Source of the DNA: a virus | Reading direction: 5' to 3' (one strand) | Virus record (IMG/VR): IMGVR_UViG_3300023199_000149 | Coordinates: 1 to 45,475 of that record | DNA length: 45,475 nt | Part shown: piece after piece, positions 986 through 29,858 of the stretch | Position numbering within the stretch: position 1 is the stretch's first letter | How the letters are laid out: each line of letters opens with the position of its first letter | Notes under the pieces: generated by a model | Seen by the model: only the letters and a program-made list of their open reading frames with translations | Database searches by the model: none | What the model was told of the DNA's origin: nothing | Translations under genes and position numbers: made by a program

Positions 986-1013
986 GATTGCTCCAAATTA
1001 CAATAAAGCAATC
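986..1013. terminator. Weak hairpin between convergent genes
   Basis: GATTGCT (986-992) pairs with AGCAATC (1007-1013) across a 14-nt loop, between the plus-strand gene ending at 955 and the minus-strand gene ending at 1013. There is no T-run on either strand, so termination here is only suggested by position. Confidence 0.3.
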
Positions 1014-2059
1014 TATGGGCACGAGGGGCAATTTCCATCACCTGTATGATCTGAATGTGGAGGAGTTAACTCATCTCTTATTGGCAATGTACCACCCTCA
1101 AGAATTTGATTAACTTCTTTGAGAAACTCATCAGCGGAGATTTGATACATTCCCCCTCGAGCCCCCTCGAAACTACAGTTCCAAGCGCCAAGAGCTTGTC
1201 CAAAGGTCAAAGCATTTTTAATAACCTCATCTGAAATACTTTCTAAATCTGGATTGTCTATTTCTCCAAGCTTAGAAATAATTCCTGCAGTTGTCCAATC
1301 GCCACATCCACATGTGTCTTTCAATTCTTCCGCTTTAAACGCTGGAATATTTATCCATTCGTTTTCACTAGAACGTCTATACCTCAGACCGTCATCACCT
1401 TTGGTTTGGATTTCTAGTGTTGGGCCAACGCCATTTTCCTTTTCAGAAACAGACGAAGAAAACCGTTCATCCGAGTACTTGATAATATCGGCAACTTTCA
1501 TTGCCTGTTGAAAATGCTTAGGATTTCCTTTTCCTGAAGGTTCAAAGAAAATCAAACAACCTAGTTCTTTAAAATGTCGTGCCAAATCAATTGCAGCAGG
1601 AGAGGTTCTATCAAAAAAGAAGACGTTCCCCCTATGAACTCTCTCCTTAACTACTTCCGCCTGCTTTAAGGTAATCGATTTAAAATTGGGTAAATAAGAA
1701 CCGCATTTGGGACAATTTTTCCAATGGAACCTGTGTTTCGGGTGTCCGTTCTTATCTTTGGTGATTTCTTGAGTGATAATTGGAACATTAGCACTTGGTT
1801 GCAACTCAGCAAAATCTAGCCTGACACCCCAGTTTTTCATATCCTCTTTTACTCGATTTGATGAGCTTTCATTGTCTAATCGAGCAAGAGGAAAAGATGA
1901 CCACCCAAGGAACGACAGAATCGTTAATACATTTCCACAAGTTCCGCCTGCCCATTGATAGGCAGCTTTATTAGTCTCAGTTCCAATAACAATATCAAGA
2001 GCAAAAAGACCAGTTCCATAGACGGAAGGTTTTTTCTCGTAATGGAGCAATGTATTCAT
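1013..2059 (-). CDS. PfkB/ribokinase-family sugar or nucleoside kinase, cysteine-rich variant
   Basis: This 348-aa protein has the PfkB layout. A glycine-rich substrate motif AGGTCGN lies near residues 37-43, and the C-terminal catalytic/anion-hole signature DTCGCGD lies at 248-254, with the final Asp as the expected base. The family norm is DTxGAGD, so the Ala is replaced by Cys. Two CPxC motifs are unusual for the family: CPKC at 116-119 and CPSC at the extreme C-terminus (344-347). They could bind a metal. Known members phosphorylate a hydroxymethyl group of sugars or nucleosides; the substrate here is unknown. It is the last gene of a minus-strand cassette, 158 bp after the Rossmann-like gene, and could have its own promoter there. 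Confidence 0.8.
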   Translation of the reverse strand: MNTLLHYEKKPSVYGTGLFALDIVIGTETNKAAYQWAGGTCGNVLTILSFLGWSSFPLARLDNESSSNRVKEDMKNWGVRLDFAELQPSANVPIITQEITKDKNGHPKHRFHWKNCPKCGSYLPNFKSITLKQAEVVKERVHRGNVFFFDRTSPAAIDLARHFKELGCLIFFEPSGKGNPKHFQQAMKVADIIKYSDERFSSSVSEKENGVGPTLEIQTKGDDGLRYRRSSENEWINIPAFKAEELKDTCGCGDWTTAGIISKLGEIDNPDLESISDEVIKNALTFGQALGAWNCSFEGARGGMYQISADEFLKEVNQILEGGTLPIRDELTPPHSDHTGDGNCPSCP

Positions 2060-2217
2060 CGTAAATCACAGTTCATTAAAACGTGCAGCGTGTGCGCGTG
2101 TATAAACTAACTCAAGAAGTTTGTATGTCTAAAAATGACATCGCACTAGATTTTTATAAAAATAATTTTCCCCATGTATCTATACCTCTAAAATTAAAGG
2201 AATAATAGAAAAGCACT

Positions 2218-3312
2218 CTAAACCTCATACGGCTGACCATTTAGCCAAACATGTAAAATTTTCATTTCCGGGTTTTCACAAATCTCTTGATCATTAAATT
2301 CATAACCAATGTTTTCAACATAATATACAGGTAATTCTTTCTGGATCGCCGCCATTAGGGTTCCTATGGCAATTGTTTTAGTGCCCATTGGGGAAAGGAG
2401 ACTAGTTGCTCCGCCCATTGCAGAAAAAAGCTCTTGTCGACGTGCGTCAATACTAATAATCCGCCGATATACGTCTAAAGGATCATCCTCTTCAACATAA
2501 AGGTAATCACCGGGTGAAACCTCCCATGCTTGAAGCTCTATCAAAAAGCTCTCAGATAGTTTGTCTCCTAACTTCGGATCCTCCGCAGGAAAAGGAACCA
2601 TTGGACAAGTATCATCTGGTGCTATGTGATCGTGTATCTTAATCAGCGTCTGCTTATGCTTTGAGTCCAACGTCGGTATCCAAAATTTTGCTTTTTCTTC
2701 TACACCATGCAAACCTGCATCATGTTGGAAACCATGTGCCAAGACCACTTCAGCATCAGGAGAGCCAACAATTGCACCATCAACTGCCGGGCTAGAAACA
2801 GCGATAACATGGAAATTAACGCCATTTTTATTGTTTAAACAATCTTCATAGAAAAGTTTCGCTATTGGAAATGAAACTCCCGTAGATAATGCGCTAAAAT
2901 CAAGAATTATGTCTGTGATATTCTCTAGTTGCCCCTGTATAGCACTCATGCTTGCCTTGATAGCATTAATTGCACTTCGCCCCCCGACAACATTCCCATC
3001 CTCAGCAAAAATTTGGATTTCATTTTGATAGTAATTTAAAACTTTCTCTGAGAGGCGTTCCGAATTGGCATTTGCCAAACAATCAAGCTTTTCTGTAGAA
3101 TTTCGCCTCTGTTCTTTTAAGAAAATAGCATAAAGCCTGTCATGTAATTTTGTTGATAGTTTTTCAGCTATATGCGTCGCCCTGAGGTCAAAACCTGCAC
3201 CACCAATCAATAAACACATTTTTGAAGGATCAGAGAAATATGTTTCTACAAAATCATCAAAATCACCGTCCTTGAATGAAATCGCCGATTTCCATTGGTC
3301 TTCAAGAATCAT
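2218..3312 (-). CDS. Uncharacterised Rossmann-like protein of the PRTase/ATPase cassette
   Basis: This 364-aa protein matches no enzyme family I can name. Conspicuous segments are LLIGGAGFDLRATH near residues 34-47, DFSALSTG near 138-145, VSSPAVDGAI near 172-181 and, toward the C-terminus, SPMGTKTIAIGTLMAA. The alternating hydrophobic strands and glycine-rich turns suggest an alpha/beta sensor or effector with two Rossmann-like halves. It has no signal peptide or TM segment. Its start overlaps the stop of the upstream ATPase gene by 4 bp (ATGA), so translation is coupled and the two products probably act together. Confidence 0.7.
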   Translation of the reverse strand: MILEDQWKSAISFKDGDFDDFVETYFSDPSKMCLLIGGAGFDLRATHIAEKLSTKLHDRLYAIFLKEQRRNSTEKLDCLANANSERLSEKVLNYYQNEIQIFAEDGNVVGGRSAINAIKASMSAIQGQLENITDIILDFSALSTGVSFPIAKLFYEDCLNNKNGVNFHVIAVSSPAVDGAIVGSPDAEVVLAHGFQHDAGLHGVEEKAKFWIPTLDSKHKQTLIKIHDHIAPDDTCPMVPFPAEDPKLGDKLSESFLIELQAWEVSPGDYLYVEEDDPLDVYRRIISIDARRQELFSAMGGATSLLSPMGTKTIAIGTLMAAIQKELPVYYVENIGYEFNDQEICENPEMKILHVWLNGQPYEV

Positions 3313-5231
3313 TTTATCATCTCTTCAATATTTGAAACCGACTTCTTGACAAAACCTCCAAGCTTTAGAGTCAGACGGTTGTGCAAAATCAAGAACCCCC
3401 CAAGGCCGATTAATGTCCATTTTTGGCCTGGTTTCCCCTGGGAGTAGTTTCTGGTGATATTGAGCGCATTGTATGCAACACCATACTTTAAGACATCAAC
3501 GATTTGAGACTTTGTTTGAAGAAGCTTATCAAACTCTTCCTGAGGGATTGAGATTGCATTGGCTCCTGCATCGAGTGGAGCATTGTCCTTTAGACTTTCA
3601 TTCTTACAAATCTCTGCAATGGCTTCTCCCATCTGAATAACTTTTTTAGCATTTGGGAAGTTCCACTCTTGATAAATACTGGTTTTAGCTTTCTCACGAA
3701 GCATTGCATCTTGAACTTTTGCATCTAACGCAATACTGCCACGTCCTTGTATCAGTTTTGTATAGCATCGCGAAACAAGGGGGCTACATAGCCTTAAAAA
3801 CAATTCCGCATTCTGAGAGCTTGCATCACATAAATCATTAAATCCATAGAAAAATGGCCTGTTATATTTGTGAGCTAAATATATTTTCGCAGCACTTGCA
3901 ATATTAGAATCTGCTTTCATTTCTAGCACATCCTCTGGTTCATTGTTTTCAAAAAAACTGCGTTGAGGACGTTTATTCTGATAACGATGAATAAGCACTC
4001 TCTCCATTGCAAGCTTAAGCTCTTCTGTACAGTCTTGACCACCATACCCTTGTTCAAAACTTTGTATTCCTGACCTTATTTGATCAATTTGAGACCGAGG
4101 AACGCCGAGTGATACAGAGCATTTTTCCACTTCGTCTCTTAACTTAGTGATAGTCCCCTCTGCAAGTGGTTGAATTCTCTCAAGCAAGAGATGGTTCAAA
4201 TTGTTATGGTTTCTATTTGCAAAATCGGGAATACGTGTCAGATAACGTTTTGAGATATCTGCTGCAATTTTTCGAAACTCACGTTTAGCACTCCCCCTTT
4301 CCTCAACAGCCTGAAAAGAAACTGAAGTTGTTTCCCTATCAGCGTCAATACCGTTAGGAGAATAGTCGTCACTATTTGTGGTAAGCTCAATTGCATGGAC
4401 AGGAGCTAATGCATCAAATCTCATCATAAGCCATCGGGCGATTTTAATCTCCCTGCGAGCGAAATCGACCTTTAATTGCCCTAGTTGATCTGCATGAAGA
4501 ATATGTGCATCATCAAGGATTACTAGTGGTTTAAGGCGAACAGTATTACCACGTGAATCTTTTGCCTGAATTTCTTCAATAATATCAAATGGCTTATAGG
4601 ATTCCACAACCTCTTTGCTTATATTAGATACATCAGGAGCAATTAATGCAGTGCCTACTTTGTATACTGCATGCTCAACTTGCCTAGCTTTATTGTAGAC
4701 ATCTTGTCCTTTTTGGCCGCCAATAAAATCAATACTTCCTTCTTCTCCCCTTTTGGGAATAAAGGTTATGTGTTCTAGAGAATATTCGCCTTTGTTAATT
4801 ACATTCGAAATCCAACCTAATACTGCACGAGCTTGAATTAATTTCAATGTAAGTTGGTATTTAAGCTTATCGTTATAGGGCAATTCCCAATAATCACGAT
4901 ATTCAGCTTCCATTGGTAAACGACAGCAAACAATTTTTGGTGACCTGCCATCAATAATCTTACATTCATTGAGTGCCGCTATTAACGGGCGATAAGCATC
5001 TAAAATATCGTTATTTAAGATTGTCTGAACAAGCCGAAACTGAATAAGATTTGCTAAAGTCGTTTTTCCACTACCTGGAGTACCTGAAATAACGACAAGT
5101 CTATCAAATAAAGTGCCTTTGCCAGCTGGATGTTTTAATTTTGCAACTAATGGTTCAGGGCTAACCAATGACAAATAGCCTTCATCATCACGTAAGTACT
5201 CGGTAGCACGTTTTTCAAATGGGTTATCCAT
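3309..5231 (-). CDS. P-loop ATPase of the PRTase cassette
   Basis: This 640-aa protein has a Walker A motif GTPGSGKTT at about residues 50-58 and a Walker B strand LVILDDAH at about 236-243. A following segment, LTTNSDD, may serve as sensor 1. The domain resembles AAA+/STAND-type ATPases of the ORC/Cdc6 sort, followed by about 350 residues of helix-rich sequence with no recognisable domain. Its start overlaps the PRTase stop by 8 bp and its stop overlaps the next start by 4 bp, so it is the translational centre of the cassette. A role as nucleotide-dependent switch or scaffold for the neighbouring enzymes is inference. Confidence 0.75.
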   Translation of the reverse strand: MDNPFEKRATEYLRDDEGYLSLVSPEPLVAKLKHPAGKGTLFDRLVVISGTPGSGKTTLANLIQFRLVQTILNNDILDAYRPLIAALNECKIIDGRSPKIVCCRLPMEAEYRDYWELPYNDKLKYQLTLKLIQARAVLGWISNVINKGEYSLEHITFIPKRGEEGSIDFIGGQKGQDVYNKARQVEHAVYKVGTALIAPDVSNISKEVVESYKPFDIIEEIQAKDSRGNTVRLKPLVILDDAHILHADQLGQLKVDFARREIKIARWLMMRFDALAPVHAIELTTNSDDYSPNGIDADRETTSVSFQAVEERGSAKREFRKIAADISKRYLTRIPDFANRNHNNLNHLLLERIQPLAEGTITKLRDEVEKCSVSLGVPRSQIDQIRSGIQSFEQGYGGQDCTEELKLAMERVLIHRYQNKRPQRSFFENNEPEDVLEMKADSNIASAAKIYLAHKYNRPFFYGFNDLCDASSQNAELFLRLCSPLVSRCYTKLIQGRGSIALDAKVQDAMLREKAKTSIYQEWNFPNAKKVIQMGEAIAEICKNESLKDNAPLDAGANAISIPQEEFDKLLQTKSQIVDVLKYGVAYNALNITRNYSQGKPGQKWTLIGLGGFLILHNRLTLKLGGFVKKSVSNIEEMIK

Positions 5232-6360
5232 GATCTAAGGTGCTCCCTCCATGTCGTGAACGTCTTCTAAAAAGCGGGCGCATTTTGTGGTTGTCTTCCT
5301 CACCAGTCGTTTCTGCCCAGATAAGAGAAATTGAATTATTAGGTGTATTGTGCTCTAGAATCAAAGGAAGTGCACATTTTGCGTAACCATATCTCATATT
5401 TGGATTGCCACTTTTAGCGGCATGTTCATCCTCAAGCGAGCAATCATAATACTTTTCAGCAAGTTTAATGAATTCTGGATCTGTTTCTTTAGTTATTTTA
5501 ACACTATTTGGTAACTGCCAAGATGCTGTAACAGCAACGCTGTGTTGTTTAAAATCGGGTGCGAATTTATCTAAATTTTCTTGGATTTTATTCATTGCTT
5601 GTGTAGTTGCAACGTAGTGGTGAGCTATAATTGCACAATCATTTGATAAGGCCCATTTTGAGCCTAGGTCATTTTGTAATTTACAAATTCCATTAAGGAA
5701 TTTACTGAGCTTTCCTTTCCAAGCCTTCTTCTCATTATCATAACGAAGAAGAGAAGTTCCGCTAGCTGTGAAATCATCAATTAGATATACCGTTTCAAAC
5801 ATTGCGCCAGGGTCATTAAGGTCACCTTTAAGCTTTTCCCCTAAGCTTTCCCATTTGTCGTTCGATGTTTCATAATATAGAACAACTTGTTCATTGCTAA
5901 TAAGGCCAATATTCTCCCTTCTTAAAATATCCAAGCGGGCACCGTCACTCATCCCCAAAAACAACGTTTTCCTTCGCGCAATTTTTATTGCTTCTCTTCC
6001 TTCAGATGTGAGACGTACTTCAAAAGGTTTTTTATTTAGACCTTTCGCAACTTTACTTTCCAAATAAGGAAGTAACTCTTTGTAATTAAACAGAGATACT
6101 ATATGGTTCATCTCCCTTGTAGAAATATAAATCAATTTTTCTTTGATAAACTTATACGCAGAACGGCGTTCTTCAATCGTATCAAACTGCTGAAGCCAAT
6201 GGGCCATATTCTCGATAAAACGAGCGCCTGCTAAAAAATCTTCATATGAATCATATTTGGATTTTGACTTAAAACCAATCCAACGGAACTCTTCATCAGC
6301 TTCACTCTCGTTCCAATCCATAACATTACTCAAAATTCTGAGAGCCAGTTTCCTATTCAT
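5224..6360 (-). CDS. Type I phosphoribosyltransferase-like protein
   Basis: This 378-aa protein carries a PRPP-binding signature VYLIDDFTASGTSLLR at residues 191-206: hydrophobic strand, double Asp, then T-A-S-G-T. This is the hallmark of type I PRTases. The N-terminal 180 residues and the C-terminal 170 are not those of purine or pyrimidine salvage enzymes. The C-terminal part has a distinctive segment HNTPNNSISLIW. PRTases of this divergent kind occur in predicted stress and conflict operons, such as Ter-associated nucleoside pathways. The substrate base is unknown. A purine-rich stretch (AGGGATGGGG) precedes the ATG, 12 bp after the SIS-HAD gene. Confidence 0.8.
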   Translation of the reverse strand: MNRKLALRILSNVMDWNESEADEEFRWIGFKSKSKYDSYEDFLAGARFIENMAHWLQQFDTIEERRSAYKFIKEKLIYISTREMNHIVSLFNYKELLPYLESKVAKGLNKKPFEVRLTSEGREAIKIARRKTLFLGMSDGARLDILRRENIGLISNEQVVLYYETSNDKWESLGEKLKGDLNDPGAMFETVYLIDDFTASGTSLLRYDNEKKAWKGKLSKFLNGICKLQNDLGSKWALSNDCAIIAHHYVATTQAMNKIQENLDKFAPDFKQHSVAVTASWQLPNSVKITKETDPEFIKLAEKYYDCSLEDEHAAKSGNPNMRYGYAKCALPLILEHNTPNNSISLIWAETTGEEDNHKMRPLFRRRSRHGGSTLDHG

Positions 6361-6372
6361 TCTACCCCATCC

Positions 6373-8289
6373 CTATTTGAATCTTGCAATGCCGCTATCT
6401 GTCACCAATCTCTTCAAGTAATGCACAGTACCATATGGTCCTTTGATACCTGGGGGGCATAAATTCCAACATGAGGAAGAAGAAGTTGAAACTTCATCAA
6501 CACTTAGAGATAGTTCAGAACTGAGTAAATCAAAATCATTTCCAGGCCATTCACCTCGGTCTCCAATTGACAATACAGATCGATTTTTTAGAAGCTTACC
6601 CGTCATTTTTTCAATAACAGTACACTTTGTGACATCTTTTTTGAGAATATCAATAGAGTGGCTTGAGCGGGTGATTTTTAGTTGAGCACAATTATTTTGT
6701 GCCTCGTTATAAACCATTTGCCATAAAAGGCCTTCTGGAAGCAGTGATTTTGTCTCAACTGTAATCTGGTTCAATCTTTCTTCAAAAGTGCATTCAAGCG
6801 TTTTTGTACTCGATAGTTGCTGAATACATAAGGACTCTTTTGTAAGATCTGGGCAAGATCGTTCTTTTCCATCTGGAGAATTGTTATCTGACAATACGCT
6901 AATATCAGATCCGTTATAATAACCAATAATAATTTGGTCCCAGTATTCCCTTGGAATAATATTCTCGCTTTGCAATGCTTCTCGAATTGATTTCCCGCGG
7001 CCTGTCGCAAACCCCACCAGTATTCCTGCGTCCAATAATCTAATGAGTTGTTCAGTCATTTCTTTGATTGGTGGATCAAACCGATGTCGAGTGTCAACGA
7101 CTGTACCGTCATAATCAAGAACAATCCCTCCAATTATTGCCTTTTTCAAACGCTTGCTAAAATCAAAATACGATTGTTTCCAGAAGGTTTCATCTACGCT
7201 AACTGGCGGGAAAGCACGTGTTTTTCTGAGTATTGCAACTTCATCTTTTTTTAGCGTTGTTCTAAAACCAGCTTTAGCACTCAGTCGGTATATTTTTGAT
7301 CCATATTGGGGGACACCAGGTTTTCCTGGATCAATATTCCGATAAACTCCTTTTTCTCCAGTTAAGAATAGTGACAAGATAATCCCTACGATAGAATCTA
7401 TCCCCGGTGTGGCATTCAAATTGATATGACAATTAGGAATCTCATCGGGTAATAAGTTGAGAGTTCTGTTGCAGATTTCTTTGTCTTCTTTGGATGAAAT
7501 GAACAATATGCCGGATTTGTCTTTTTGCTTATCAAACCAGTGATGCCGACCATGAGCGAAATTCCGGATGTCAGAAATTAGAACAGACCCAAGACCTGCT
7601 TCGACAAACTTTGACTCAATGTCTATTGCTGCAGCTTTCAATGGCGTGCTGTAAACGACTTGAATATGCTCCATTGGCCAAAGGTTGGAGCAATCTTGAA
7701 ATAAGTCATCAAGTGACGAATGTGATGATAGTGTGTTTAATATTAGATTTTGGAGACTAGTAGGTAAGTTTGTAGGAATTTCGACTGTGAGACAGTAAGC
7801 TCGATAAAGAATAATGATAAATGAAACCAAAGAGTTAGTAGCTAAAAAGCCATCTTTTCCTGCTGGCAAATCGAAAGCAAAGATATCTGCAAATTGAAAT
7901 TTATCTGCGAGTTCGCCCAACTTGGAATTTTCTGATCCAACAATTGCTGCTACAATAGCAGGTTCAAGCAAGGCAGCATGCTTAAAGGCACGCCTTACAT
8001 CAATATTATTACCGCTGGCGGACATAAGCCAGACAGATGCTTTTCCATCTCTTGGAAGATGTTCAATCATTTCCAAAGGTGTTACGGCTTGTGCAACAGT
8101 TTCAAAAAGAGATCGATGAAGAGAGGCATGGTACTCTGCTGCTGAAAAAGATCCTCCTGACCCAACTGTAAACAAAGGGTGGTGCCAGCTTCTTTTCAAG
8201 GTTTTAGAGATTTCAGAAACATCAAAACTACAGGCCCATTCGTATGTTTTGTTTAGTTCTTCAAGTTCATTCTTGAATGGCCTTCCCAT
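6373..8289 (-). CDS. SIS-domain sugar isomerase / HAD phosphatase fusion
   Basis: First gene of the cassette, 638 aa. Residues about 40-330 form a double SIS (GlmS/AgaS-like) phosphosugar-binding unit with VGSGGSFSA (42-50) and MSASGNN (89-95). Residues about 385-635 form a Cof/SPP-type HAD hydrolase. It has motif I DYDGT (392-396), motif II FATGRG (427-432), candidate motif III lysines near 551-555, and motif IV GDRGEWPGND (576-585). All HAD catalytic positions appear intact. The predicted chemistry is isomerisation or binding of a phosphosugar, then dephosphorylation. The start has a good SD (GGAAGGG, 5 nt spacing). Confidence 0.8.
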   Translation of the reverse strand: MGRPFKNELEELNKTYEWACSFDVSEISKTLKRSWHHPLFTVGSGGSFSAAEYHASLHRSLFETVAQAVTPLEMIEHLPRDGKASVWLMSASGNNIDVRRAFKHAALLEPAIVAAIVGSENSKLGELADKFQFADIFAFDLPAGKDGFLATNSLVSFIIILYRAYCLTVEIPTNLPTSLQNLILNTLSSHSSLDDLFQDCSNLWPMEHIQVVYSTPLKAAAIDIESKFVEAGLGSVLISDIRNFAHGRHHWFDKQKDKSGILFISSKEDKEICNRTLNLLPDEIPNCHINLNATPGIDSIVGIILSLFLTGEKGVYRNIDPGKPGVPQYGSKIYRLSAKAGFRTTLKKDEVAILRKTRAFPPVSVDETFWKQSYFDFSKRLKKAIIGGIVLDYDGTVVDTRHRFDPPIKEMTEQLIRLLDAGILVGFATGRGKSIREALQSENIIPREYWDQIIIGYYNGSDISVLSDNNSPDGKERSCPDLTKESLCIQQLSSTKTLECTFEERLNQITVETKSLLPEGLLWQMVYNEAQNNCAQLKITRSSHSIDILKKDVTKCTVIEKMTGKLLKNRSVLSIGDRGEWPGNDFDLLSSELSLSVDEVSTSSSSCWNLCPPGIKGPYGTVHYLKRLVTDSGIARFK

Positions 8290-9464: not shown

Positions 9465-9902
9465 TCACATTGCTGCCTTCATTGCGTGTTTCATTGCCGT
9501 TTTATCGGCTTTTTCGTCTTTTTCTCGGCATTCCAAAACGTATCCATAGTAGGCCATGACCGCTTTGGCAAAATTATGATTGGCAAGGATTATCCTGCGT
9601 TCTTCTTCTATTTCTTTCACAAATTCAATAGCTTCCTCAAGCAAGGCACCATCCAACGGAACATCGGGCATTTCAGCCTTGATGCTAGTCTTCATTGATC
9701 CGACACCAGTAAGTAACCAGTTCAGATCATAGCCTTTTTGAGCAATGACAGAAAGGTACTGTAGCTTTGGCAAGGAATCTCCTGCCTCATACCTTTGCCA
9801 TGTTCTAAATTTTGTACCGACTAACTCAGCCATCTCTTCCTGGCTTAATTCTAGGTCTTTTCGCACCCTTTTTAGTCGGTCAACAATATCAGCGTTTTCC
9901 AT
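9465..9902 (-). CDS. Phage repressor, XRE/Cro-CI HTH family
   Basis: 145 aa from the ATG at 9902 (MENADIVDRL). A canonical HTH covers about residues 15-50 (LELSQEEMAELVG, RTWQRYEAGDSLP). A hydrophobic NWLLTGVG segment and a charged helical C-terminus, probably for oligomerisation, follow. There is no LexA-like peptidase domain. The upstream in-frame starts at 9935 and 9968 lie at or before the predicted transcription start and lack an SD. It is divergent from ner and faces a cluster of repeated motifs, the normal position of the c repressor in Mu-like phages. Confidence 0.8.
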   Translation of the reverse strand: MENADIVDRLKRVRKDLELSQEEMAELVGTKFRTWQRYEAGDSLPKLQYLSVIAQKGYDLNWLLTGVGSMKTSIKAEMPDVPLDGALLEEAIEFVKEIEEERRIILANHNFAKAVMAYYGYVLECREKDEKADKTAMKHAMKAAM

Positions 9903-10063
9903 GCCACAGTTTAAATCCCTTTCTGTGGCGTTATGCATATTTTTACAAACACAGCCACAGAACGACAAAACCTAAAAGAAAACAAAGGCTTACGTCTTTT
10001 TTGACGCAATTGCGCCATTTTCTTTCTGTGGCACGTCATTTTAATGTTGATTACGCCACTTTT
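9900..10063. promoter_or_regulatory. Repressor/Ner operator cluster
   Basis: CTGTGGC-type sites recur at 9900-9910 (reverse), 9921-9930, 9954-9962 (reverse) and 10024-10032. A second motif, ATTRCGCCAYTTT, occurs at 10009-10021 and 10050-10062. All six fall in about 165 bp between the divergent repressor and ner genes and overlap both predicted promoters. Which motif binds the repressor and which binds Ner cannot be told from sequence. Confidence 0.55.
9940..9968 (-). promoter_or_regulatory. Candidate repressor promoter
   Basis: On the minus strand TTGTCG (9963-9968), a 17-bp spacer and TAAAAA (9940-9945) give a start near 9933, about 30 nt before the repressor ATG at 9902. The -35 overlaps one CTGTGGC site, as expected for autoregulation. 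Confidence 0.4.
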
Positions 10064-10073
10064 GTCGTATAGT
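10047..10073 (+). promoter_or_regulatory. Candidate early lytic promoter
   Basis: TTGATT (10047-10052) and TATAGT (10068-10073) lie 15 bp apart upstream of ner, with an ATTACGCCACTTTT operator-like motif in the spacer. The short spacer makes the exact hexamers uncertain. The position between repressor and ner is right for the early promoter. Confidence 0.45.
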
Positions 10074-10144
10074 GTTCATTCTACTAATCGAATTTGGACA
10101 CCCCGAAAAAAGCCGATCTGACCATCGGCATCCAAGGAGAACTC

Positions 10145-18716: not shown

Positions 18717-19371
18717 GCAGCTTTATGCCCTGCGTCCTTACGGCGGCTGGCGCGTGACTATTTCCGATCTTCCCTGGTTGTTCAAAAACTATTCAGCCAA
18801 AGGCGAAGAAAAGAACGCGCTTGCCCATTACAAATGCATGACCATTCCTGAAATCATTGAGTTTGGTAAACAGATCGATGGCCTTTTTGCTAAGGATTGT
18901 GTCCACCTGATGTGGGTCACATGGCCTCTAATGATGGAGTGGCACAAAGTCATCAAAGGTCTTGGGTTTGAATATAGTGGCCTCGGCTGGGAGTGGATCA
19001 AATACAACGCTGAGACCGACAAATATGCCTTCGGCCCTGGTTATGGCACTCGCAAAAACCTTGAGCCTTGCCTCCTCCTTATCCGTGGTAATCCAAAGCT
19101 GAAGAAAGACTTCGATTTCTTTGGTGAGGTCGATGTGGCTGAAGGTGTGCGATCTGTGCGCGACTGGATGGAATATAACCCGTTTGACTGCATTCGTGCC
19201 AAGCGCCGGGATCATAGCCAAAAACCACATGAACAATATGAACGCGCTGAGACCATGTTCGAAGGTCCATACCTGGACCTTTTCTCTCGTCCTGATCGTG
19301 AACTGGTAGAGCGCCCAGGCTGGACGTTCTTCGGCGATCAGGTTGATTTCTATTTGGAGGAAGCAGCATGA
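18676..19371 (+). CDS. MT-A70 family adenine methyltransferase
   Basis: 231 aa from 18676; an ATG at 18688 is an alternative. The fold is MT-A70: a catalytic motif IV at residues 31-34, NYSAKGEEKNALAHYKCM, HLMWVTWPL, GYGTRKNLEPCLLLIRG and the terminal ERPGWTFFGDQVD. The canonical DPPW is DLPW here, a substitution of the second residue. The role is N6-adenine methylation of phage DNA, probably to block host restriction. Whether DLPW is active is unknown. The stop overlaps the next ATG by 4 bp. Confidence 0.85.
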   Translation: MEFVMYRNLAKTVEQLYALRPYGGWRVTISDLPWLFKNYSAKGEEKNALAHYKCMTIPEIIEFGKQIDGLFAKDCVHLMWVTWPLMMEWHKVIKGLGFEYSGLGWEWIKYNAETDKYAFGPGYGTRKNLEPCLLLIRGNPKLKKDFDFFGEVDVAEGVRSVRDWMEYNPFDCIRAKRRDHSQKPHEQYERAETMFEGPYLDLFSRPDRELVERPGWTFFGDQVDFYLEEAA

Positions 19372-20531: not shown

Positions 20532-20984
20532 ATGAAACGTTCTGCAGCATGGCATAAAGCAAACCGCGCCATTCGTGCGGCCTGTAAGGATCGCGGTATC
20601 AATGAAGATCAGCGCAAACTCATCATGGAAAATGTAACCGGCAACACTTCCTCGAGCGATTGCAACGCCCAGGAACTGGAGGCTGTTCTTGATCGCATCA
20701 ACGGTCAGATACAACACCTCCGCGACTTCAAACCTTCAAGCAAATCATTTGTTCGCCTGATCTGGGCACTTTGGAATGACCTGGATAAACGTGGTGGTGT
20801 CAAATATGACGACACGCGCCAGGGCCTGGTCTTGTTCGTCAATAAATTCCGTTCTGAAGACAAACAGCTCACAGATCCGCGTCAACTTGATTGGCTGACT
20901 TACAACGAAGCCACACCGGTCATTGAAGCCCTGAAAAAGATGATTGAGCGCGTTAAGAAGAAAGGTTCTGCCACCAATGTCTAA
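20532..20984 (+). CDS. gemA: GemA-like protein (Mu gp16 family)
   Basis: 150 aa; AGGAG lies 9 nt before the ATG. The family pattern RAIRAACKDRGINEDQRKLIMENVTG, the SSSDCNAQELEAVL segment and the C-terminal LDWLTYNEATPVIEALKKMI identify the GemA/DUF1018 family. Mu GemA affects host gene expression and DNA topology. In this phage class it stands immediately before the Mor-type activator, as here. Confidence 0.8.
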   Translation: MKRSAAWHKANRAIRAACKDRGINEDQRKLIMENVTGNTSSSDCNAQELEAVLDRINGQIQHLRDFKPSSKSFVRLIWALWNDLDKRGGVKYDDTRQGLVLFVNKFRSEDKQLTDPRQLDWLTYNEATPVIEALKKMIERVKKKGSATNV

Positions 20985-21348
20985 CGGCAAGGAATATACC
21001 GATCTGGAAGCCATCGCCGATCAATGCTCTCCAGTCATTGCGCGGCGATTGGTTGAAGTCTTTCCTGGCACCGTTCAATATGTCCCAGCCAAGCTGACAG
21101 AGGAGCATGAACTAACATCGATCGGCGAACACCATGCAAAAGAGCTTGTCAAACATTTCGCCAAGTGTACCATCTACATTCCGATGTCACTGTTGAATGA
21201 AGGACAACGAAAAGCTCTGATCCTTAAGCGCCATAAGGAAAAAGTTAAAGTTCTGGACATTGCATTGGAGGCTGGTTGCACAGAGCGCCGCGTCTATCAG
21301 GTACTGGCAAAAGCCAGGAAAGAACGGGAACAACCCACGCTATTTTAA
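20977..21348 (+). CDS. mor: Mor/C-family transcription activator
   Basis: 123 aa from ATG 20977, overlapping gemA by 8 bp. It has the Mor domain: an N-terminal dimerisation region followed by a C-terminal HTH (KALILKRHKEKVKVLDIALEAGCTERRVYQVLAKAR, with LDIALEAGCTERRVYQ as core). In Mu, Mor activates the middle promoter and C the late promoters. Only one such gene is visible here, so it may directly switch on lysis and structural genes downstream. Confidence 0.8.
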   Translation: MSNGKEYTDLEAIADQCSPVIARRLVEVFPGTVQYVPAKLTEEHELTSIGEHHAKELVKHFAKCTIYIPMSLLNEGQRKALILKRHKEKVKVLDIALEAGCTERRVYQVLAKARKEREQPTLF

Positions 21349-21368
21349 CGTAAAAGCATCCCTTTCCC

Positions 21369-21391
21369 TGAAGCCTTCAATACCATATATA
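21369..21391 (+). promoter_or_regulatory. Candidate Mor-dependent promoter
   Basis: A dyad TGAAGCCTTCA (21369-21379) lies just upstream of TATATA (21386-21391), directly after mor and before the lysis genes, with no good -35 box. Activator-dependent phage promoters look like this. The dyad is closer to the -10 than in Mu, so the assignment is tentative. Confidence 0.35.
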
Positions 21392-25713: not shown

Positions 25714-27137
25714 TGGCTAGAACATCCAAAAAGAAGCAGCCAAAGCCCGTCTTTAACGAGATCACAGCTGCAGGCGGTACGACAATGGGTGTCGCATTCA
25801 GTGACCGCTCCATGGAATCTAACGCAAGAAACATCAAAAGTTGGCGTGGTTTGTTACGTGATCACCAGGTTGGAAGTGTCTGGGAACAACGTCAAGCCGG
25901 TGTCATTGCTGTAGACTGGGAAGTATATCCAGCCAGTGAAGCAGCTAATGATGTGGCAGCCGCAGAGTTCATCAAAGACCAAATCTCAAAAGTCGGCTTT
26001 GACCAGGTCACCAAGAAAATGCATTTCGCACAGTTCTATGGTTTTGCCATTGCAGAATGCATGTGGGCAAAAGACGGAAGTAGAATTGTCCTGGATAAAA
26101 TCGTTGTCCGTGCCCAGGAGCGATTCACCTGGAAAGGTGGCGAACTGTTGTTTACAGGTGGAGGGAACTCCCAAGGCGATCCCCTACCTGATTTCAAAAT
26201 GTGGCATTACACCCTGCCAGGAGATAGTGATGATGTTCCTCATGGTCCTTGCTTAGGCTGGCGACTTTACTGGCCGGTCTTTCTCAAAGAAAATGGCGCT
26301 CGTTTTTGGGCGGTCTTTATTGAGAAATACGGTATGCCAACATCAAAAGGAGAACATCCGACACACGCAACTCAAGAAGAAATCGACAATCTCCTGGCCA
26401 CACTAATGGCTGTACATAGTCAATCAGCTGTCGCTGTACCTGAAGGTTTCAAGCTGGAACTCCTTCAAGCTATGCGTTCTAGCGGTGGAGATTATGAAAA
26501 ATTCCAGGAATACTGGGATAAGGCGGTTTCCAAAGTCATCCTAAGTCAAACGATGACAACTGATGACGGCAGCTCCCAAAGCCAGGCAAACGTTCATGAG
26601 CGTGTTGCCGATAACATCATTCAAGGCGATGCGGACCTGATCTGTGACAGTTTCAACAGAGGGCCAATTGCTTGGCTAACAGCTTGGAATTTCCCTGGTG
26701 CTAATCCTCCAGAGGTATGGCGCCGCATTGCTCAGGAAGAAGACCTGGATAAACGTGCTGATCGAGACAAGAAGGTTTCAGAAGCATCTGGACTAAGGCC
26801 AACAAAAGCTTATGTGGAAGACGTGTATGGTGGCGAATGGGAAGAAACTAACGCCCAGGAAAAACGACAACCGAAAGACCCGGCCTTTGCCGATCGTGAC
26901 GACGAAGCAGATGATGTGGACGAACTCGCAGATCAGCTTGACGATCTTTCTTCAGCAGATTTCGCAGACATCCTTGACGAAATCCGCCAAACATTGAAAG
27001 ACAGTCAGAGCCTCGAAGATGCACAAAGCCGACTGCTTTCTCTGTCATCAAAAATCAAAACAAATGAGATGGCCAAGAAGGTTGCAGGCGGATTAGCGGT
27101 TGCCGATCTGATGGGCCGAGCGAGTGTTGACACATGA
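25713..27137 (+). CDS. Portal protein (DUF935, Mu gp29-like)
   Basis: 474 aa. The DUF935 hallmarks are RGLLRDHQVGSVWEQRQAGV, AQFYGFAIAECMW, AVFIEKYGMPTSKGEHP and LAQEEDLDK-type C-terminal helices; the acidic tail (DRDDEADDVDELADQLDDL) is typical. It forms the dodecameric portal. The stop overlaps the F-like gene (ATGA). Confidence 0.9.
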   Translation: MARTSKKKQPKPVFNEITAAGGTTMGVAFSDRSMESNARNIKSWRGLLRDHQVGSVWEQRQAGVIAVDWEVYPASEAANDVAAAEFIKDQISKVGFDQVTKKMHFAQFYGFAIAECMWAKDGSRIVLDKIVVRAQERFTWKGGELLFTGGGNSQGDPLPDFKMWHYTLPGDSDDVPHGPCLGWRLYWPVFLKENGARFWAVFIEKYGMPTSKGEHPTHATQEEIDNLLATLMAVHSQSAVAVPEGFKLELLQAMRSSGGDYEKFQEYWDKAVSKVILSQTMTTDDGSSQSQANVHERVADNIIQGDADLICDSFNRGPIAWLTAWNFPGANPPEVWRRIAQEEDLDKRADRDKKVSEASGLRPTKAYVEDVYGGEWEETNAQEKRQPKDPAFADRDDEADDVDELADQLDDLSSADFADILDEIRQTLKDSQSLEDAQSRLLSLSSKIKTNEMAKKVAGGLAVADLMGRASVDT

Positions 27138-28369
27138 AGCTGGACGATACCGCTCTCGAGTTCCAGGAAGCAATCGACTATTTCAAAGGTAAGGTAAACC
27201 TTCCCACCAAAGCCTGGACGGATGTTTGGGAAGAACAGCATACCAAAGCCTTTGTCATTGCCGGTGCGACCAAGACGACCATGCTGGAAGATTTTCGCGG
27301 CGCCATTACCAAAGCGATCGAGAACGGAACCACGTTAGAAGAATTTCGCCAGGACTTTGACACCATCGTTGCCAAGCATGGCTGGACCTACAAGGGAAAA
27401 CGCGGTTGGCGTACCAGAGTCATCTTTGAAACCAATCTGCGCACAGCACATGCAGCCGGTCGATGGGATCAGATTGAACGGGTGAAGAAAATCCGTCCAT
27501 ATCTACGATATATCGCTGTGGACGATCAACGCACCCGACGTCAACACAAAGGCTGGGACGGTCTTATCTATCCGGTCGATCACGAATTTTGGAACACCCA
27601 CTATCCTCCAAATGGCTGGGGCTGCAGATGTACAGTTCAATCTCTGTCGGAACGTGATCTTAAGAAAAAAGGTTACAGCGTTTCTTCTTCCATGCCAGCT
27701 GATGGCGTTGATCATCACACCATCAAAACACCTGGTGGGGATATGCAGGTCGAAACACCGGCAGGCATCGACCCTGGTTTTGCCTACAATGTCGGTCGAA
27801 ACCGATTAACCGGCGTTACGCCACCACCTGCACCTGGACAACCAGATCCAGGAAATGGATTGCCTGCAACCACCCCAATGCCGTCACCGCGCAATGTCTC
27901 AACCGCCAAGACCTTGCCCAGCAGTGGCATGACCGAAGATGACTATGCTGATGCCTTCCTGAAAGAGTTTGGCGGTTCAACTTCAAAGCCCGTTCTATTC
28001 ACTGACAAGGTTGGTGAAGTGCTTTCGATTTCCGAGGATCTGTTTAAGGACATCAATGGCGATTGGAAAATTACTAAGGGTGGTCGCGCACCGTATCTGA
28101 GATACCTGGCTGACAACATCAAGGATCCGGATGAAATCTGGTTTGACTGGCAACAACTTGAAAATGGAAAGTGGGTATTGCGACGCCGCTATATGAGCCG
28201 CTTCGATGTATCAGGAAAGCAATTGAGTGGCTATAGCGTCTTTGAGGTAACCAACAAGGGGTGGCGCGAGGTCACAAACTTCACCCCGAAAGCTGATAGA
28301 AAATCGCAAAACCAAGATGAATATTTAGAGAAATGGCGGCGGGGCAGCTTGTTATATCGAAAAAAATAA
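27134..28369 (+). CDS. Mu gpF-like minor head protein fused to a PBECR2-type nuclease domain
   Basis: 411 aa. Residues about 60-200 are the phage_Mu_F head-morphogenesis domain (RVIFETNLRTAHAAGRW, HYPPNGWGCRCTV). A Pro-rich linker lies at about 230-265. Residues about 290-411 match the phage Barnase-EndoU-ColicinE5/RelE-like fold (PBECR2): ISEDLFKDINGDWKITKGGR, DEIWFDWQQLENGKWVLRRR. A nuclease carried inside the virion could be ejected with DNA. Activity is inference. Confidence 0.82.
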   Translation: MKLDDTALEFQEAIDYFKGKVNLPTKAWTDVWEEQHTKAFVIAGATKTTMLEDFRGAITKAIENGTTLEEFRQDFDTIVAKHGWTYKGKRGWRTRVIFETNLRTAHAAGRWDQIERVKKIRPYLRYIAVDDQRTRRQHKGWDGLIYPVDHEFWNTHYPPNGWGCRCTVQSLSERDLKKKGYSVSSSMPADGVDHHTIKTPGGDMQVETPAGIDPGFAYNVGRNRLTGVTPPPAPGQPDPGNGLPATTPMPSPRNVSTAKTLPSSGMTEDDYADAFLKEFGGSTSKPVLFTDKVGEVLSISEDLFKDINGDWKITKGGRAPYLRYLADNIKDPDEIWFDWQQLENGKWVLRRRYMSRFDVSGKQLSGYSVFEVTNKGWREVTNFTPKADRKSQNQDEYLEKWRRGSLLYRKK

Positions 28370-28443
28370 AGCCGGGAGGTTCCTTCCCGGCTTCAAGGGA
28401 GCCATTCGACGCGACAGTTGAACCCGCGTAGGTCATCCCTCAT
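28361..28443 (-). ncRNA. Putative antisense-oriented small RNA or leaderless 16-codon message
   Basis: A consensus promoter (28450-28478) points left; its start is expected at about 28443. The minus strand then gives a terminator hairpin AAGCCGGGA/TCCCGGCTT (28393-28369) followed by TATTTTTTT. The transcript is about 80 nt. The first base at +1 is the A of an ATG opening MRDDLRGFNCRVEWLP and a stop at 28393, so it could be a leaderless peptide mRNA. ACGCG/CGCGT pairing gives a second stem. Its 3' end is antisense to the last codons of the F-like gene. Confidence 0.6.
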
Positions 28444-28449
28444 GCGAGT

Positions 28450-28478
28450 ATTATAGGATATCACCCCGTAAAATTCAA
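28450..28478 (-). promoter_or_regulatory. Strong sigma-70 promoter for the small RNA
   Basis: On the minus strand TTGAAT (28473-28478), exactly 17 bp, then TATAAT (28450-28455), a perfect -10. It opposes the late operon and should be active in a lysogen without any phage activator. Confidence 0.7.
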
Positions 28479-28739
28479 CAATCTGATTTTAAGCCCACTG
28501 AGCGTCTCTAATGCGTTTTAAGCTACGCTGGCAGGGAGTAAATGTCATTCCCCCCGTTAGAGGGGCGTTAGAGAAGCAAATTGACGGGTTCTGAAATGGA
28601 TGTCTGGACAAGCTTCATCACTTCGACCATGATGTGCCCATATTCCCCTTTTGCCCAATCTGATCTTTTTCCCTGAAGCGTTCAATCACGCTAACAGATA
28701 AGCCTCGTCATTATGGCCTTCGATGTTTCGGAGGTTTAG
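28479..28739. other. Intergenic stretch with no supported gene
   Basis: These 261 bp, unusually long in a packed head operon, precede the protease gene and its GGAGG site. I see a small CCCC-GTTAGA-GGGG hairpin (28552-28565 area), a direct repeat CGTTAGAGGGG/CGTTAGAGA, and a minus-strand open stretch (28568-28681, ending VNLLL) without a start. The stretch may be gene debris. One TCTGGACA resembling the transposase sites lies at 28602-28609. Confidence 0.4.
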
Positions 28740-29858
28740 ATGACAAAACGCATCCATATTTTCAAAAGCGGAAAGCACACTTCAATGGAAGGTGCGGCGA
28801 TCAGTTTCAGTGACGAGATCGTCAGTCAGGTCGCAGACAATTACGACCCACAGGTTTCTGAGGCCCCTCTGGTCATCGGGCACCCTAAAACGGAAGACGA
28901 AGCCTACGGCTGGGTTAAGTCTGTTCAGTTCGAAGACGGTGGACTATTTGCAGAGGCGGATCAAATCGATCCGGCCTTCTCTGAAATGGTGACCCAGGGC
29001 AAATTCAAAAAAGTATCTGCCTGTTTTTTCGCCCCCAAATCTCCAAACAACCCGACACCTGGCGCTTTTTATTTGCGCCATGTTGGTTTCCTTGGTGCTG
29101 CTGTCCCTGCCGTTAAAGGGCTACAGCAAGTTCAATTCTCTGACGCTGAAGAAGATGTTGTCACAGTCGAGTTCGCGGATTTTTCCGGCTGGACGATCGC
29201 AGACATTGGTCGCGGTCTTCTGAGCATTAAAAAATTCCTTCTCGGTAAATATGACGCTGAAGAAGTGAATGACGCCATTCCCGATTGGACCGCTGAAGGT
29301 CTCATTGAAAAGGGGGCGTATGAAGCTGGCAAAGAAGCCGGTGAGGAAGCCACTGATACTTCCTCAAGTTTCTCTGAACCCTCTAACGATGATGAGGATC
29401 CTATGACAAAGAATACTCAACCCGGCACCTTGTCGGCTGAGGAAATCACTGCTCGCCAGAAAAAACTGGAAGCAGACGAAGCGGCCTTTGCTGAAAAGCA
29501 GGCTGCTGCAGATGCCAAGGCGTTTATCACACCGTTGGTAAATGAAGGCAAAGTCCTTCCAGGTGAAGAAGACACACTGGCAAGCTTTATGGCCAGCCTG
29601 TCTTCCGACGAAACAGTTTCATTCGCTGATGGCGATGAAACAAAAGAAAAAGGTCAACTGGAGATCTTCCAGGACTTTTTGAGCGGACTGCCATGCCGCG
29701 TGAACTTCTCCGAAGAAACAGGTGCAAAGGGTGATCAGGTTGATTTCAACGACCCTGATCAATTGTCTGCAGCTGTTGCTTTACACATCAAAGAACAGGC
29801 TGCAAAGGGCATTCAAGTCTCTGCCATTGAAGCCCTCGAAGCTGTGAAAGGGTCTTAA
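28740..29858 (+). CDS. Mu gpI-like prohead protease with nested scaffold
   Basis: 372 aa with GGAGG before the ATG. The N-terminal 150 residues are the Mu I protease domain (TKRIHIFKSGKHTSMEG, APLVIGHPKTEDEAYGW, KKVSACFFAP, HVGFLGAAVPAVKGL). The C-terminal part is Glu/Ala-rich coiled-coil (SAEEITARQKKLEADEAAFAE), the scaffold. It matures the prohead by cleaving the scaffold. Confidence 0.88.
   Translation: MTKRIHIFKSGKHTSMEGAAISFSDEIVSQVADNYDPQVSEAPLVIGHPKTEDEAYGWVKSVQFEDGGLFAEADQIDPAFSEMVTQGKFKKVSACFFAPKSPNNPTPGAFYLRHVGFLGAAVPAVKGLQQVQFSDAEEDVVTVEFADFSGWTIADIGRGLLSIKKFLLGKYDAEEVNDAIPDWTAEGLIEKGAYEAGKEAGEEATDTSSSFSEPSNDDEDPMTKNTQPGTLSAEEITARQKKLEADEAAFAEKQAAADAKAFITPLVNEGKVLPGEEDTLASFMASLSSDETVSFADGDETKEKGQLEIFQDFLSGLPCRVNFSEETGAKGDQVDFNDPDQLSAAVALHIKEQAAKGIQVSAIEALEAVKGS
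29403..29858 (+). CDS. Scaffold protein from internal start (Mu gpZ-like)
   Basis: An in-frame ATG at 29403 within the protease gene is preceded by GAGGATCCT and opens MTKNTQPGTL. The 151-aa product is the coiled-coil scaffold alone. In Mu the scaffold Z is likewise made from an internal start in I. The site is seen; its use is inference. Confidence 0.6.
   Translation: MTKNTQPGTLSAEEITARQKKLEADEAAFAEKQAAADAKAFITPLVNEGKVLPGEEDTLASFMASLSSDETVSFADGDETKEKGQLEIFQDFLSGLPCRVNFSEETGAKGDQVDFNDPDQLSAAVALHIKEQAAKGIQVSAIEALEAVKGS

Follow-up and report, generated by a model that had tools for sequence, protein, structure and literature searches.

A Mu-like phage carries, in the gap between its genes for the minor head protein MuF and the head maturation protease I, a compact predicted transcription unit that faces the late operon, and its most likely product, judged from promoter and terminator sequence, is a non-coding RNA of ~83 nt. 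We read the unit as a clade-specific accessory gene for this small RNA in the MuF/G–protease I slot, a reading to which we give an even chance. The antisense RNA is an accessory, and greater interest attaches to the phased repeats that lie beside it. What recurs in the gaps of relatives is a late promoter site together with these repeats, not the antisense unit.

The window, by which we mean the whole 45,475-bp stretch analyzed, contains the phage from ~8520 to 45195 (36.7 kb), bounded by repeated TTCTGGACA end sites and with bacterial flanks on both sides. It is a Mu-like transposable phage of the RR1-B/RcapMu type, with genes in the order repressor, ParB-like, transposase, MuB-like, GemA, late activator, lysis, terminase, portal, MuF, protease I, scaffold, capsid, and tail. 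Where the repressor and early genes diverge, at 9900-10080, repeated TTCTGTGGC sequences are likely to be repressor operators. Outside the phage, the left flank encodes on the minus strand (1013-8289) a CARF-domain protein, an ORC-CDC6-like ATPase, a PRTase-CE protein, and a HAD-domain protein, possibly a defence operon; the flanking tRNA did not discriminate between hosts. The MuF–protease I gap is 370 bp long (28370-28740), and the antisense unit sits inside it. gpG is absent from its usual position here, as it likewise is in Ochrobactrum phage POA1180, which has a neck protein gene downstream. The features of the region are collected in Table 1.

Table 1. Genes, sites, and predicted elements in and around the MuF–protease I gap, in window coordinates
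Feature	Coordinates	Strand	Basis
Late activator (Mor/C) gene	20944-21348		
Twin late-activator-like site TTTCCCTGAAGCCTTCAAT, right after the Mor/C gene	21363..21381	+	Sequence match to 28668 site
MuF (minor head protein), upstream neighbour of the gap	27134..28369	+	PHROG 220, E 3e-99
Intrinsic terminator: 11-bp stem, loop AGGAACC, T7 tail	28360..28395	-	Scan; z -4.4
Predicted ~83-nt RNA	28361..28443	-	Placement relative to -10 and terminator
16-codon ORF MRDDLRGFNCRVEWLP, ATG at predicted +1	28393..28443	-	Direct reading
Sigma70-type antisense promoter, TTGAAT-17-TATAAT	28450..28478	-	Consensus scan, 10/12
Third, inverted copy GCATTAGAG	28506..28514	-	
Tandem CCCCCGTTAGAGGGGCGTTAGAG, 11-bp spacing, candidate arm of a strong gyrase site	28551..28573	+	Same tandem in relatives
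Late-activator-like site TTTCCCTGAAGCGTTCAAT, candidate P_I region	28668..28686	+	18/18 specified bases identical to 21363 site
Head maturation protease I, downstream neighbour of the gap	28740..29858	+	PHROG 976, E 6e-99

The first-pass annotation had described a promoter, an ATG at +1, a 16-codon ORF, and a terminator on the minus strand of the gap, and all four were found where it had placed them. The -35 hexamer TTGAAT (28478-28473) and the -10 hexamer TATAAT (28455-28450) are separated by a 17-nt spacer, and the predicted +1 is A28443, 7 nt past the -10. The terminator, which ranks among the two best in the phage, has its stem at 28395-28367 and its T7 run at 28366-28360. This run is encoded by the final Lys-Lys codons of MuF, so that the RNA would end at the MuF stop codon. 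Only the 3' end of the RNA, the U-run and the stop codon, overlaps MuF, the remainder being intergenic, and it is therefore hardly antisense to any coding sequence. Read on the plus strand the hairpin is without a U-run, so the terminator would work only in the direction of the promoter. The predicted RNA consists of a weak 5' hairpin, a strong terminator hairpin, and a U-tail; the terminator hairpin folds well beyond shuffles (z -4.4), and the folding of the 48-nt 5' domain is no better than that of shuffles (z -0.5).

Promoters matching at 10 of 12 positions are in themselves ordinary, with 4 observed in the phage and 3.9 expected. When the 36.7-kb phage was shuffled 320 times with its dinucleotides preserved, a promoter of at least 10/12 was never followed 20-150 nt downstream by a terminator this strong; if any fair terminator is counted, the pairing arose in 5% of shuffles. 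The spacing of the two elements thus suits an RNA of 50-150 nt, as would be expected of an independent small RNA gene, better than chance would provide. The unit has also been kept in a sibling contig, the only close relative, and on both grounds the proposal of a compact, independent transcription unit facing the late operon is supported.

The sibling, IMGVR 3300022725_000086 (L169), has 0 changes in the 83 positions of RNA and terminator, and the three changes in its promoter region fall in the spacer and discriminator, leaving both hexamers unchanged. Set against ~20% change at four-fold sites in the flanking genes (23% over MuF as a whole and ~21% at the start of the protease gene), this unchanged copy supports a small RNA gene, as do the pairing absent from all 320 shuffles, the z-score of the terminator, and the slot itself, which hosts morons with their own promoters and varies in length among relatives. 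The tract of low divergence from L169 is wider than the unit: it starts within MuF, at 28154, and reaches ~28740, and the last 230 bp of MuF have 0 of 25 four-fold sites changed. Because the tract extends beyond the unit, the scarcity of changes is not a property of the RNA in particular, and exchange or recombination rather than selection may account for it.

Beyond the sibling, the unit was not encountered. From 160 relatives collected, the gaps of ~107 others were compared, and none had a compact antisense unit; nor were antisense promoters enriched in these gaps. An exact 23-mer of the window, which differs from the sibling, had no match in viral contigs, and an 18-mer from the body of the RNA matched the sibling only. 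Searches with blastn gave three weak matches in phages (E about 3) and none in E. coli. A 44-nt plasmid match proved spurious. Four weak matches came from 369 sampled genomes belonging to the same class as G003, which is the genome with the Ectothiorhodospiraceae MAG locus L030; the best (L184) lay in a glycosyltransferase-like gene and lacked the hairpin, and these were rejected. Rfam had no match in the gap. Across phages, plasmids, E. coli, viral contigs, and the 369 genomes, neither conservation nor covariation of the unit was found beyond the close sibling. The first-pass annotation had held that absence from all relatives would count against its proposal; this is nearly what was found, in that one sibling has the unit and all others are without it. 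With a single sibling as carrier and no credible homologue elsewhere, the unit is clade-specific.

This distribution bears on the view that the unit is not a gene at all, which we consider rather unlikely. The promoter match would then be incidental and the hairpin would serve some other end, either halting stray transcription in the antisense direction or stabilising MuF mRNA at its 3' side. The ~4 promoters of this quality expected in the phage are in keeping with this view, as are the single sibling, the low-divergence tract that exceeds the unit, and the relatives that lack it. However, an incidental promoter would hardly be paired with so strong a terminator (0/320 shuffles), and the hairpin, being without a U-run on the plus strand, is a terminator only in the direction of the promoter.

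According to the small RNA reading, RNA polymerase would start at 28443 and stop at the MuF stop codon, so that the RNA would not enter the late genes. The promoter looks constitutive and, judging by its consensus match, may be on in lysogens, as first proposed. The RNA would most likely act in trans, either through base pairing or by binding a protein. Two other elements of the gap, the candidate late promoter P_I (28668) and the phased repeat (28551-28573), would be independent of it. Hfq- and CsrA-type trans-acting small RNAs resemble the unit in being short, in having their own promoter and a strong terminator with a U-tail, and in the two ARGGA motifs of the predicted RNA. They differ in that the unit has no conserved seed, no target found, an unstructured 5' domain, and no Rfam match. 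Among 49 phage genes, duplex energies pointed to no convincing mRNA target (best z -2.5). A CsrA/RsmA sponge would be expected to expose several GGA motifs in loops; of the two ARGGA copies here, that in the terminator loop alone is unpaired, and the motifs only hint at binding by CsrA.

Of the small RNA and the leaderless 16-aa message offered earlier, the RNA is the likelier, and the peptide, for which no coding signal was seen, is not supported. The MRDDLRGFNCRVEWLP frame, also listed as a longer ORF with a GTG start, is probably not a gene. In favor of a leaderless message is the ATG at the predicted +1. Yet chance alone would leave 16 codons open behind a given ATG in roughly one case out of two, so the frame is no evidence, and its stop codon falls within the stem of the terminator, where a ribosome would hinder termination. 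The frame is identical in both known copies (the window and L169), which leaves no changes by which to gauge coding constraint and no sequence variation indicating coding. We regard the peptide as very improbable.

It is also quite improbable that the RNA acts in cis, by pairing with a late mRNA that reads through from MuF to I and directing RNase III to cut it between its upstream and I-T parts. That the RNA would match the intergenic stretch of such a transcript base for base is consistent with this, and P_I would make the downstream part independent; but relatives with the same gene order lack the unit, and read-through is itself hypothetical.

Mu has a strong gyrase site (SGS) that is needed for transposition and helps synapsis of the prophage ends, and a C-dependent late promoter, P_I, that lies between G and I. 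The first-pass statement that no such element had been described here calls for qualification, the place itself being well known for acr operons as well as for the Mu gyrase site. The D3112-like phages have anti-CRISPR operons with their own promoters between gpG and I (PMC4704812; PMC4378225), and JBD24 likewise bears an acr locus in this slot, the length of which ranges in relatives from 56 bp to >4000 bp. The acr-aca moron loci of the D3112/JBD-type Pseudomonas phages share with our unit the MuF/gpG–protease I slot and the character of an accessory unit with its own promoter, which in their case can be on in the prophage (PMC4704812). In contrast, our unit is on the opposite strand, spans ~120 bp, and comprises just an RNA or a 16-codon frame. 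No acr or HTH aca gene was found in the gap, which has no ORF of at least 60 aa inside it and only unremarkable smaller ones. If the unit does specify a small antisense RNA, the accessory genes known from the G-I slot would gain one more clade-specific example.

The shared slot invites comparison with RNA anti-CRISPRs (Racrs) and other mimics of CRISPR repeats, the known Racrs being solitary, promoter-driven RNAs in phages. However, the RNA bears no likeness above shuffles to a small panel of nine common CRISPR repeats, and we give this explanation the faintest of chances. The specific immunity function suggested at first is not supported. No likeness to these CRISPR repeats, no target among the phage genes, and no family match was found.

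Downstream of the unit lies a site that the phage repeats once. The shared sequence, TTTCCCTGAAGC[C/G]TTCAAT, has two copies and no other within at most 3 mismatches; one copy is 73 bp before I, and the other is directly past the late-activator gene. By position and sequence, they are candidate activator sites of P_I (28668) and P_lys (21363), respectively. RR1-B, RcapMu, and POA1180 each have a site, of their own sequence, that stands in the post-activator region and again within the final 50-80 bp ahead of I. The shared element of RR1-B and RcapMu looks like a terminator as well, so that part of it may be one. The site of the window resembles Mu P_I in standing before I and in being shared with the region after the late activator, and it differs in its sequence; binding of the activator to it is presumed.

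Between this site and the unit are the phased repeats. CGTTAGA-N4-CGTTAGA, with copies at 28555 and 28566 that are 11 bp apart, lies 185 bp before I. An identical tandem occurs in RR1-B at 18870/18881, ~200 bp before I, in a gap that otherwise looks unrelated, and the same tandem is found in JBD24, RcapMu, and other relatives. In a comparison that was exploratory, having been made after the repeats were noticed, exact direct 6-mer repeats at lag 11 were present in 54 gaps of 114 dereplicated relatives and reference phages, compared with ~15 at other lags and ~10 in shuffles, and 7-mer repeats in 35 versus ~5. No such excess was found in control stretches lying 1.5-3 kb from the gaps. Helically phased repeats thus recur in roughly half the gaps of the dereplicated relatives. 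Typical units, CCCCGTTAGA and TTTAAACGGGG, alternate AT and GC over one helical turn.

The published gyrase motif consists of two arms in which G+C is phased at 10.75 bp (PMC6379681). In the window, helical G+C phasing places the stretch at ~28543-28590 among the top 0.02% of the phage at 47-bp windows but only among the top 1% at 100 bp. At periods of 9.5-10.75, and in the same exploratory spirit, the gap holds the locus maximum of helical G+C phasing in 17-28 of 107 relatives, against 2.3 expected; a smaller excess at periods of 8, 9, 12, 13, and 15 (8-11 of 107) perhaps arises because the gaps are non-coding. A candidate gyrase site has been proposed in Ab30 at the start of the same gap (PMC5977238). 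The Mu gyrase cut site is annotated in the G-I gap, 176 bp before I, and our tandem is at -185; TTTTTAAACCGGTATTTAACGG, which occurs in Mu's own gap in the right arm, is akin to the TTTAAACGGGG repeats of the relatives. The repeat lies in the central G-I gap, at ~0.55 of the phage; Mu I starts at 0.49. The resemblance concerns the tandem repeat rather than the antisense unit. We regard the tandem as a candidate strong gyrase site, which these likenesses fit but do not prove. That a homologue of the gyrase site is widespread, in the form of 11-bp phased AT/GC repeats before I in transposable phages far from Mu, we put forward tentatively, holding it somewhat less probable than not. The repeats bear on an open question (PMC8705779) and make it directly testable.

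The proximity of the unit to the repeats, at 70-100 bp, raises an alternative in which the promoter matters and not the RNA: leftward transcription away from the putative gyrase site, opposite to P_I, would hold that site under negative supercoiling or spare it read-through, and so aid synapsis of the prophage ends as the Mu SGS does. The Mu cut site in the same gap, P_I leaving on the other side, and the position of the gap near the phage center are consistent with it. On the other hand, relatives have the repeats without the antisense unit, and the gyrase site here is only a candidate, and we consider such a role improbable. A broader proposal, that the central gap is a widespread topology element to which, in this clade, the antisense promoter and small RNA are coupled and modulate gyrase loading or synapsis, is a long shot; coupling of the unit to the gyrase site is much less likely than a widespread gyrase-site homologue alone.

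CGTTAGA is not confined to the gap. It is the top over-represented heptamer in the phage of the window (8520-45195; 20 copies versus 1.7 expected) and in RR1-B (L188; 21 versus 1.3), dispersed in both on both strands, and RcapMu has CGTCAGGA in its place. ParB was considered as a reader of the motif and rejected as inconsistent: L051 has the motif and no ParB match in its genome, and L014 has ParB (39%) and was not flagged for the motif. Viral contigs yielded no ParB relatives. In the window, three convergent pairs of CGTTAGA are spaced by 40-41 bp (13968/14008, 15621/15662, and 45096/45136), an arrangement that none of 20000 random placements reproduced within this two-base spacing window.
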